NCBI GenBank assembly: GCA_001799615.1
Contig: MGTU01000025.1
Span: 62,001-126,000 of the forward strand
Direction: 5' to 3'
Length of the DNA: 64,000 bases
Source: Elusimicrobia bacterium GWA2_61_42
GTDB taxonomy: Bacteria > Elusimicrobiota > Elusimicrobia > Elusimicrobiales > UBA9959
Shown: in pieces, positions 2,484 through 36,796 of the stretch
Layout: the number at the start of each line of letters is the position of its first letter
Numbering within the stretch: the stretch's first letter is position 1
Notes under the pieces: generated by a model
Told to the model about the DNA's origin: nothing
The model's database searches: none
What the model saw: the letters and a program-made list of their open reading frames with translations, nothing else
Translations under genes and position numbers: made by a program

Positions 2484-2526
2484 ACGTAAATAATAGCAAA
2501 ATGTATACGGCAAGCTTGCTGGTTCG

Positions 2527-2654
2527 CAGTGACAGGGGGTTGGAACGCAAAAACGGCGTCGCGCACACCGTGCGCGCGCCTCCCCGCCTCAGCCCTCGCG
2601 CTATGCAAGCTCGGGCTTCCGGCAGGGTTTTGCTAACCCAACCCCCTGCCACTG
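2527..2654. repeat. Palindromic element, copy A (homologous to copy B at 36652-36766)
   Basis: The ends form an inverted repeat: CAGTGACAGGGGGTTGG at 2527-2543 against CCAACCCCCTGCCACTG at 2638-2654, with one mismatch. Inside, GCAAAA (2547-2552) can pair with TTTTGC (2628-2633). GCGCAC-ACC-GTGCGC (2561-2575) is a perfect hairpin, and AGCCC (2591-2595) pairs with GGGCT (2613-2617). The core aligns almost base for base with copy B, and several differences fall on both sides of a stem so that pairing is kept. There is no coding capacity. It sits in the 262-base gap between two divergent genes and could be a mobile miniature element or a structured RNA. See the findings. Confidence 0.85.
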
Positions 2655-2675
2655 CTCCAACTCGCCAGATTGAGG

Positions 2676-12643: not shown

Positions 12644-12777
12644 GGGGGCTGCCGGGGGGTGTCCCCTGCTCACCCGGACCGAGGAAACCCTTGCGTCGGT
12701 TTCCCCCCGCCTAGGGAATTTATGGCGGGGCCCCCTTTCCGCAACGGGTGCTCAGGGGACACCCCCCGGCAGCCCCC
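12644..12777. repeat. Palindromic element C with perfect 25-bp inverted ends
   Basis: Bases 12644-12668 are the exact reverse complement of 12753-12777. After a two-base mismatch the stem resumes (CACCCG with CGGGTG). Inside are two more hairpins: GGAAACC at 12683-12689 with GGTTTCC at 12698-12704, and CCCCGCC at 12705-12711 with GGCGGGG at 12724-12730. The two bases outside each end are TC, a possible but weak target duplication. It fills most of the gap between the convergent alpha-2-macroglobulin and small membrane protein genes. It resembles a miniature inverted-repeat element and might also terminate transcription. Confidence 0.85.
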
Positions 12778-35407: not shown

Positions 35408-36637
35408 ATGAAGCACGCGCAAAAAACAGGCCTCTTGCTGGTGATAGACGCGGTCGGGCTTTCCACCCTGGAGTACCTGCTGTCCAAGTACCCCGGCAAG
35501 GTGAAGCTGCCCAACCTCGCCCGCCTGGGCCTGGGGGAGATAGTGCTGCCGGAATTTAAAAAACGCGTGGGCGTTAAAGCTTCCGGCAAGGCCTACGCCG
35601 CGCGCGTCAGCCAGGTTTCCGCCACGGCGGACAGCCTGGTGGGCCACCGCGAGATGATGGGCGTGATAGACCACCGCACTTACGACCTTTTTGACGACGG
35701 GTTCAGCCGGGAGTACCTGGCCGAGCTGGAGAAGCGCATCGGCCGCAGGACCTTCTTCAACAAGATGGCGGGCGGCATGGAGGCCATAGAGCTGAACGCC
35801 GCCGAGCACGAGCGCACCGGCAAGCCCATCGCGTATGCCAGCAAGTGCGACCCCCTCATCCAGCTGGCGATGAACGAGGCCGTCATCCCCGTGCCCGAGC
35901 AGCATAAGATCGCCGACACCGCCTTCGCCCTGGCCATGGAAATGGGCATCCCGATCACCCGCGCCATAGCGCGCTCGTACATCAAGAACGAACAGGGCGA
36001 GATCATCCGCACCTCCAACCGCCACGACGCGGTGCTGCCCATCGGCCAGAAGACGCTGGTGGACATCCTGCACGACAGCGCCGTCTGGACGGTGGCCGTG
36101 GGCAAGACCAGCGACCTGGTGAACACCGCCTACCACGCCAAGGTGAAGCTGAACAAGGAAGTGTTCATCGACCCGGCGCTGGGCCTGCGCTTCGTGCACC
36201 CGAAGAAGAAGGATACCAACCCGTTCTCCATCCAGGGCACCATCAACGCGCTGCAGGCCGCCCATAATGTTTACCGGCCCAAAGGCACCTTTATCTTTAC
36301 CAACCTGGTGGACACCGACAGCGTCTACGGCCATACGCGCGACGTGGAGGGGGCGCTGAAGTCGCTGGAGGAGATAGACCGGACCCTGCCGCTGATAGAG
36401 AAGAACCTGGCCAAGGGCGACCTGCTGGGCATCACGGCCGACCACGGCATGCTGCACCGCGAGGACTACGGCTATCACAGCAACGAGCCGCTGCCCTTCA
36501 TCGCTTACCGCAAGGGCTTCGACCGCAAGCTGGGCGGGCTGAAAACCGGCCTCATGCCGGGCCTCGCCGACATCGGCAGCGTGTTCGCGCAGTACTTCGG
36601 CCTGCAGGCCGAGTATAAGAAGATCGTTAAGCTTTAA
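35408..36637 (+). CDS. deoB: Phosphopentomutase
   Basis: A 409-residue alkaline phosphatase-superfamily enzyme that interconverts ribose (or deoxyribose) 1-phosphate and 5-phosphate, the step after phosphorolysis of nucleosides. The metal-binding start is LLLVIDAVGLSTLEYL, where the Asp is a ligand. SQVSATADSLVGHREMMGV corresponds to the loop holding the phosphorylated residue. The C-terminal TNLVDTDSVYGHTRDVEGA and LLGITADHGMLHREDYGYHSNEP supply the remaining metal ligands. I chose the ATG at 35408 because GGAGAATCT precedes it directly; an ATG six codons upstream has no such site. It pairs functionally with the CNT transporter at 20886. Palindromic element B and a terminator follow. Confidence 0.85.
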   Translation: MKHAQKTGLLLVIDAVGLSTLEYLLSKYPGKVKLPNLARLGLGEIVLPEFKKRVGVKASGKAYAARVSQVSATADSLVGHREMMGVIDHRTYDLFDDGFSREYLAELEKRIGRRTFFNKMAGGMEAIELNAAEHERTGKPIAYASKCDPLIQLAMNEAVIPVPEQHKIADTAFALAMEMGIPITRAIARSYIKNEQGEIIRTSNRHDAVLPIGQKTLVDILHDSAVWTVAVGKTSDLVNTAYHAKVKLNKEVFIDPALGLRFVHPKKKDTNPFSIQGTINALQAAHNVYRPKGTFIFTNLVDTDSVYGHTRDVEGALKSLEEIDRTLPLIEKNLAKGDLLGITADHGMLHREDYGYHSNEPLPFIAYRKGFDRKLGGLKTGLMPGLADIGSVFAQYFGLQAEYKKIVKL

Positions 36638-36651
36638 GTGCGCGTCCGCCA

Positions 36652-36766
36652 AGGGGGTCAGAACGCAAAAACAGGGTCTCGCACACCGTGCTCGCCCTTC
36701 CCCGTCTCGGCCCTCGCGCTTATGCAAGCTCGGGCCTCCGACAGGGTTTTGCTAACCTGACCCCCT
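36652..36766. repeat. Palindromic element, copy B (homologous to copy A at 2527-2654)
   Basis: The ends AGGGGGTCAG (36652-36661) and CTGACCCCCT (36757-36766) are perfect inverted repeats. Internal pairings match copy A: GCAAAA with TTTTGC, the GCAC-ACC-GTGC hairpin at 36681-36691, and GGCCC (36709-36713) with GGGCC (36732-36736). The element begins 14 bases after the phosphopentomutase stop and lies before its terminator, so it would be part of that mRNA if transcription runs through. Confidence 0.85.
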
Positions 36767-36796
36767 CGTCGAACGCGCGGGCGGCTCAGTAAAAGA

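Follow-up and report, generated by a model that had tools for sequence, protein, structure and literature searches.

Among the known palindromic repeats of bacteria, the REPs are hairpins of 20-40 bp. As described in the main text of PMC3733652, REPs have alternative complementary residues in their stems, form inverted dimers and are placed between genes in a manner similar to that reported below, and repeats of the CGTC type carry mostly CCA-type tails and have no linked transposase. The string 'elusimicrob' is absent from the main text of that article. Template switching between the arms of an inverted repeat homogenises the arms and inverts the spacer, as reported in PMC8604942 for very short spacers (changes of 2-5 bp), and it is described in PMC8794818 as creating and maintaining hairpins with multi-base compensatory changes.

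Three further kinds of palindrome were considered for comparison. ERIC and MITE-like repeats are large imperfect palindromes of near 130 bp that lie between genes in either orientation, and the arms of ERIC-type copies are alike in sequence. Integron attC sites are conserved as a folded single strand and not as a sequence, and one strand folds better than the other. The T-shaped inverted terminal repeats of viruses are T or Y palindromes with two side hairpins, and are known in two orientations.

The repeat described here has two copies in the window, by which we mean the whole stretch of 64,000 nucleotides of Elusimicrobia bacterium GWA2_61_42 that was analysed. Its cloverleaf family, from a group of uncultured bacteria, is a larger, more elaborate relative in kind of the known bacterial palindromic repeats. 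Unlike ERIC as generally described, the cloverleaf has arms that are nearly free in sequence yet complementary. Unlike attC sites, its copies are dispersed over many contigs, with no cassette arrays, and bear a head built on a three-way junction; attC was set aside by eye against the general description of such sites, no matching R and L boxes being recognised. The viral T-shaped repeats serve as an analogy, the cloverleaf being chromosomal and interspersed, with no role in terminal replication suggested.

Two related palindromes in the window

The initial annotation had reported two palindromes 34 kb apart, copy A (2527-2654) and copy B (36652-36766), that align almost base for base. Their positions and alignment were rechecked in the sequence and found to be as reported, and a repeat finder run on the window also lists both, as D10 and D14. 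The terminal stems read GGGGGTTGG/CCAACCCCC and GGGGGTCAG/CTGACCCCC, and a second stem reads AGCCC/GGGCT in copy A against GGCCC/GGGCC in copy B; the claim that both stems had changed on the two strands with pairing kept was correct as written. In copy A the pairing runs on outward as CAGTGACAGGGGG/CCCCCTGCCACTG. When RNA folds were compared with dinucleotide shuffles, z was -7.60 (+ strand) and -8.34 (- strand) for copy A, and -5.82 and -6.30, respectively, for copy B, with 0 of 200 shuffles as good. The folding energy of the - strand was -88.8 kcal/mol against -73.9 for the + strand in copy A, and -69.4 against -55 in copy B. Copy B is flanked by a stop codon on one side and by a terminator-like hairpin with a T run on the other. 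Within the window the two copies are the sole matches to the covariance model described below, and their features are listed in Table 1. A separate large inverted repeat at 12644-12777, with 33 nt arms that are 94% complementary and 68 nt apart (GGGGGCTGCCGGGGGGTGTCCCC...), is absent from the model matches.

Table 1. Coordinates of the two cloverleaf copies and their parts in the window.
Feature	Position	Strand	Basis or remark
Copy A	2520..2661	+	Covariance model R1; contig C25 (G000) 64520-64661; encloses 2527-2654
Copy A, 5' terminal-stem arm CAGTGACAGGGGGTTGG	2527..2543	+	Sequence, fold
Copy A, 3' terminal-stem arm CCAACCCCCTGCCACTG	2638..2654	+	Sequence, fold
Copy A, inner stem GCAAAA	2547..2552	+	Partner TTTTGC 2628-2633; closes the three-way junction; fold, pair counts
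Copy A, side hairpin 1, conserved tip CACACCGTG	2555..2580	+	Fold, alignment, pair counts
Copy A, side hairpin 2, conserved tip GCGC-TATGCAAGC	2582..2627	+	Fold, alignment, pair counts
Copy B	36637..36781	+	Covariance model R1; contig C25 (G000) 98637-98781; encloses 36652-36766
Copy B, 5' arm: outer stem GCGCGTCC, CCA side of asymmetric internal loop, GGGGGTCAG	36640..36661	+	
Copy B, 3' arm: CTGACCCCCT, CGTC, outer stem GAACGCGC, in that order	36757..36778	+	
Copy B, side hairpin 1	36673..36698	+	Fold, pair counts
Copy B, side hairpin 2	36700..36746	+	Fold, pair counts

Structure and covariation of the repeat family

The anatomy of the unit was drawn from alignment, folds and pair counts. 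It is an imperfect palindrome of about 145-170 bp, with 145 positions in the covariance model. Read in + orientation from the outside, it begins with an outer stem that is variable and some 6 bp long, inside which an asymmetric internal loop sets CCA on the 5' side opposite CGTC on the 3' side. Next come an inner stem, about 10 bp in length, another internal loop with AAC opposite TAA, and a short stem beneath the junction, usually GCAAAA/TTTTGC. The two-part stem comes to about 15-25 bp overall. The three-way-junction head, of roughly 85-100 nt, bears hairpin 1, tipped by CACACCGTG, and hairpin 2, tipped by GCGC-TTAYGCAAGC or GCGC-TATGCAAGC. The hairpin tips are almost invariant and the letters of the stems vary widely; in a second subtype, a GGAACGCAAAAC block is swapped for one of type TATGGGNNNGTCGGGCAC, and pairing is retained. 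Tips and asymmetric loops are conserved within the genome from which the window comes (the source genome), and the tips recur in loci of other genera. At three loci (L274 1015-1180, L348 1353-1520 and L294 4001-4164) the head has an extra small hairpin, for example GGAGCGAAGCGACAG in L348, in the manner of a nested loop insertion.

Pairing was measured in 44 copies of the source genome, using a MAFFT alignment that was not fitted to the structure model. Stem cells were paired in 90.1% of cases against a shuffled mean of 74.1%, and two-sided changes numbered 311 cells, where shuffling gave a mean of 85.8 and the best slid control 62. The covariation score was 0.396, compared to a shuffled mean of 0.127, and the retention of pairing first noted in two copies thus holds over a large family. 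Many copies whose differences fell at random with respect to the stems had been named as the pattern that would speak against it; copies are indeed many, and their stems covary very strongly, so that this check did not go against the observation.

Distribution among genomes

The source genome (2.95 Mb in 34 contigs) gave 44 blastn matches. When 44 copies had been aligned and turned into a covariance model, this returned 77 rows, of which 7 overlapped a better row, leaving 70 places, and all 70 matches span model positions 1-145. A search of 52 neighbourhoods of this genome again returned 70, the two weakest with E of 5e-10 and 5e-7, E-values of the model being rough. Outside the source genome, blastn with copy A matched 34 of 61 genomes, made up of all 32 of the genus (the source genome and 31 others) and two more, one of them at E 0.007. 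With stricter filters, the model matched 38 of 294 genomes of a phylum sample, comprising 22 of the genus, 14 from five further genera of the family (g3, g5, g10, g12 and g13) and 2 from other families of the class. These last two, G286 and G218, gave three and one weak model matches (best E 3.9e-9 and 5.1e-6), which are possible diverged relatives.

A motif scan over 84,980 species genomes found at least 111 stretches. Among the 80 loci listed, 66 were titled Elusimicrobia, Elusimicrobiales or Elusimicrobiota and 14 'bacterium', and the 6 bins behind the latter match at the same contig places as 6 genomes of genus g1; no other phylum appeared among the matches listed. Fourteen genomes from the scan gave 25 to 101 model rows each, opposite-strand rows included. 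No match to one exact motif was found in IMG/VR viral contigs, and plasmids and phages gave no blastn match to copy A. The initial annotation had recognised no matching family, and this stands for Rfam 15 at gathering thresholds, where the window gave 0 matches; relaxed searches (E up to 10) returned 8 and 4 matches for the two copies, each far below the gathering score. In the open-licence literature, neither a palindromic repeat of this type in Elusimicrobia (titles and the starts of abstracts) nor an Elusimicrobi- noncoding RNA with covariation was found.

In all, 239 copies were analysed: 70 from the source genome, 104 from named loci (106 matches, less two opposite-strand duplicates) and a further 65 (73 matches, less four duplicate loci and four opposite-strand rows). 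Sufficient flanking sequence was available for 217 distinct copies. The alignments of all three sets were fitted to the structure, and counts drawn from them are biased in its favour. Those of the genomes compared that carry titles are metagenome assemblies, and those with G handles are incomplete.

Filled, empty and reversed sites

Orthologous sites were compared for the two copies of the window. Of 30 loci fetched for the copy A site, 22 had both anchors (8 lacked the second), and 2 of these 22 were filled, in the source genome and in G015, the latter with the other subtype; the remaining 20 carry 84-409 nt without a copy. For copy B, 25 of 30 loci had both anchors (5 lacked the second). Five were filled, in the source genome, G015, G021 and G027 and, in rearranged form, G022, and 20 had no copy; one long stretch at this site, L360, gave no model match. 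Relative to the source genome, the element is reversed in G021 and G027. In G022 (L350 2714-2969), the left arm and the start of the head are intact and the rest consists of long other hairpins. Further filled and empty orthologous sites were seen in alignments beyond these two, and filled sites are over-represented among the motif-scan loci because these were picked for containing the motif.

Both orientations were present at 11 of 21 orthologous single-copy sites, with no contradictory comparison. By genome pairs, 43 had the same orientation and 33 the opposite, sites with two neighbouring copies in one genome and four same-genome duplicates being excluded. The clearest reversal is that between L275 and L210, where the flanks match, the unusual stem CATAAGGGTTG/CAACCCTTAYG is found in both, and the head is inverted. 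In L210 the CCA side now reads GACG, the full complement of the CGTC side, which is what template switching would do. Some of the reversals may be artefacts, since in incomplete metagenome assemblies made from short reads a head flanked by inverted arms of about 25 bp could be joined in the wrong orientation. Among 11 alignments read at filled and empty sites, a possible TA target-site duplication was seen at L186 compared with L285, the other sites being too diverged.

Arms, heads and close pairs

When the heads (83-87 nt) of 69 copies of the source genome were grouped at an identity of 97% or more, there were groups of 10, 7, 5 and 3 copies and seven pairs. Median arm identity is 0.62 for the 64 pairs of copies sharing near-identical heads, against 0.58 for any two copies, and the self-complementarity of a copy's own arms in the three large head groups has a median of 0.79, internal loop included. 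Arms and heads evolve separately. At some orthologous sites, such as that of L262 and L136, the copies have the outer arm in common (GCGGTTCCG/CGGAACCGC in this case) and differ in the head. In same-orientation orthologues, both-sided Watson-Crick changes compared to one-sided changes numbered 122:35 in the inner stem (inner 10 bp), 81:39 in the outer stem and 196:68 in the head, and in opposite-orientation orthologues 105:30, 66:28 and 134:69, respectively; the pairs compared are non-independent, and these counts lean towards the structure because the alignments were fitted to its model.

Copies lying 300 bp or less apart are always arranged + then -, or tail to tail (30 of 30 pairs, 29 of them distinct, 10 in the source genome), and head-tail order occurs in 0 of the 29 distinct pairs. 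This uniform arrangement argues against free flipping of the heads. Some of the sites with mixed orientation may therefore be losses from ancestral pairs, or the pairs may be constrained; L114 (-), L209 (+) and L145 (a pair) look like alternative losses from one pair. Of 217 copies, 81 have CTCC (GGAG on the - strand) at the 3' foot of the + strand, and only 16 have it at the mirrored position.

Comparison with REPs and a proposed mechanism

The explanation that we favour, at somewhat better than even confidence, is that these repeats of Elusimicrobiota form a non-autonomous family that acts at the level of DNA, in the manner of a giant REP/BIME. As in the GTAG and CGTC superfamilies treated in the main text of PMC3733652, the copies are dispersed, mostly intergenic palindromes with subfamilies of complementary stem residues, they form inverted dimers with head-tail order rare, and most of them lie where the neighbouring genes are same-direction or convergent. 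In the consensus, the motifs CGTC and CCA face each other across the stem, which may correspond to the arrangement in the CGTC REPs, for which that text likewise gives no linked transposase. Unlike REP/BIME, the cloverleaf is a three-way junction of about 145-170 bp and not a hairpin of 20-40 bp, its arms are almost free in sequence, its orientation varies at orthologous sites, and its pairs are tail to tail only, if the GGAG foot is taken as the tag. In addition, its CGTC and CCA lie inside a longer stem, the outer stem continuing past both motifs, and the stem of 8-9 bp and loop of 4-5 bp of a CGTC REP contrast with an inner stem of 10 bp and a head of roughly 85-100 nt.

In such a repeat, recognition and conservation would apply to the folded single strand (or a cruciform). 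The compensating changes would come mainly from template switching at replication, one arm being rewritten from the other and the spacer inverted. Both marks of template switching, arm rewriting and inversion, are present, and they occur together in one case (L275/L210). The annotation had held that selection explains the pairing better than plain duplication, which we regard as only half of the answer, since template switching is a published mechanism that alone yields multi-base compensatory changes (PMC8794818). Selection must also act, because template switching by itself would erase the CCA/CGTC and AAC/TAA loops; whether it serves the host or the copying of the element itself, it would preserve these asymmetric loops. 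Differences in orientation may reflect inversion in place and, at some sites, loss of either member of a tail-to-tail pair. The size of the inverted head (about 100 nt), compared with the very short spacers reported in PMC8604942, counts against inversion by template switching. Since the loops are conserved and presence differs between species, we infer a mobile or formerly mobile repeat with a constrained fold.

Covariation is usually taken as strong evidence for a functional RNA. In the cloverleaf it comes with little wobble and with reversed heads, as expected of pairing at the level of DNA, a warning that covariation alone is insufficient to call such repeats RNA genes. With dozens of copies per genome, many species and orthologous sites, the family is a dense natural data set that can be used for measuring compensatory evolution from template switching against that from selection, and it adds a large, structurally elaborate repeat family to a little-studied phylum.

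It is conceivable, and in our judgement unlikely, that the repeats are mobile DNA of a new class, whose recognition depends on the folded strand alone, with a putative recombinase or nuclease acting on the cloverleaf head. If this were true, heads would be exchanged, inverted and spread between sites while each site kept its self-complementary arms, and the genome would hold a population of DNA heads that recombine with one another, each on a stem private to its site.

Placement relative to genes and the possibility of a structured RNA

Genes were called with a simple custom hexamer gene finder. In the source genome, 65 of 70 copies were intergenic and 5 overlapped a predicted frame; the neighbouring genes were same-direction for 49 copies, convergent for 11 and divergent for 5. 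The 104 copies of the named loci were divided into 52 same-direction, 26 convergent and 4 divergent placements, 7 overlaps and 15 at locus edges. Compared with all gaps of at least 100 bp in these regions and in the named loci (161 same-direction, 48 convergent, 52 divergent), divergent gaps are under-used. Between same-direction genes, 26 copies of the source genome were oriented with the genes and 23 against (n=49), and in the named loci the figures were 25 and 27.

Terminal-stem cells in 231 distinct rows comprised 3433 Watson-Crick, 36 G-T, 101 A-C and 155 other combinations. An RNA from the + strand should favour G-T, which is not favoured in the terminal stems, and the excess of A-C means that wobble is preferred on the - strand. 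A tRNA control gave 94 Watson-Crick, 2 G-T, 0 A-C and 2 other cells from 14 distinct acceptor stems, which are too few. The wobble excess and the better fold of the - strand would suit either strand-specific folded DNA or a - strand RNA.

The second of these, a structured RNA read from the - strand (a small RNA or an mRNA 3'-end element) whose compensatory changes are selected through the fold, appears improbable to us. It agrees with the better folding of the - strand in both copies, with the A-C cells (G-U on that strand), with the recurrence of the hairpin tips in loci of other genera, and with the position of the copies relative to genes, the closest gene end being a 3' end in 98 of 147 copies that have two readable neighbours (both sets). 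Wobble-type cells are nevertheless scarce on either strand, no Rfam family matches, both orientations are found at 11 of 21 orthologous sites, and the absence of a strand bias relative to genes disfavours a cis-acting RNA element in particular. Some copies (group Y, judged by eye) lie directly against the start region of the next gene, which leaves them hardly any space for their own promoter. Folded DNA is favoured over RNA, and not proved, by the lack of gene-strand bias and the reversals between species, together with the filled and empty orthologous sites, near-identical heads on dissimilar self-complementary arms, and the few wobble pairs. Of the two readings offered in the initial annotation, the mobile element of hairpin type is a better fit than the structured RNA, in view of the empty sites, the two orientations, the lack of gene-strand bias and the absence of G-T enrichment on the + strand.

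Y1 transposases and other origins

Searches that covered Y1/RAYT genes found no linked mobilising enzyme. A Y1/REP-associated transposase had been suggested as the partner of the repeat; such genes are present in the genome but do not track the repeat, and Y1/RAYT as the mover is not supported. Y1 genes were found in 49 of 59 genomes of the family (161 matches in all). Five element-bearing genomes at least 90% complete (G003, G015, G023, G025 and G244) had no Y1 match, incomplete assemblies being able to hide such a gene, and Y1 matches are numerous in several genomes that the model does not match, such as G034 (9) and G035 (8). One Y1-type transposase frame of the source genome (L074 1465-2313, G000 C4) has 282 aa, with a C-terminal segment that by eye resembles a helix-turn-helix, and no cloverleaf lies in that locus.

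It is quite unlikely that the repeats are a true REP/REPIN family with a RAYT (Y1 HUH transposase) as mover, acting at the GGAG foot of the - strand. The enrichment of that foot over its mirrored side and the solely tail-to-tail close pairs would be expected of such a family, as would the two Y1 genes of the source genome and a placement mainly between same-direction or convergent genes, as described for REPs in the main text of PMC3733652. Apart from the mismatch in occurrence between Y1 genes and repeat, no copy was found in the flanks, up to 1.5 kb on each side, of any of 21 Y1 loci examined (of the 161 matches), and the unit of about 145-170 bp is not one of 20-40 bp. A MITE, derived by deletion from a DDE insertion sequence and bounded by terminal inverted repeats, is very unlikely: size, palindromy, dispersed copies and empty sites fit, but the ends should be alike in all copies, which the low arm identity beneath near-identical heads contradicts, and no clear target-site duplication stands out in the 11 alignments read. 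Least credible are old palindromes with neither function nor mobility, paired by template switching alone and homogenised by gene conversion, for while arm homogenisation, inversion and head exchange require no enzyme of the element (PMC8604942), the tips and asymmetric internal loops are conserved in the source genome, the tips recur in other genera, and presence differs between species.

Different palindromes, of type GGGGTCAGGTCTTGCATT... or AAAGGGGACAGGCTACTTT..., occupy the intergenic, cloverleaf-empty sites of L325, L354 and L363. GGGG[AT]CAGG motifs are also found in some Y1 loci on both strands (2 and 2 in L302, L305 and L310), and the palindromes at these three empty sites may be real RAYT-linked repeats.
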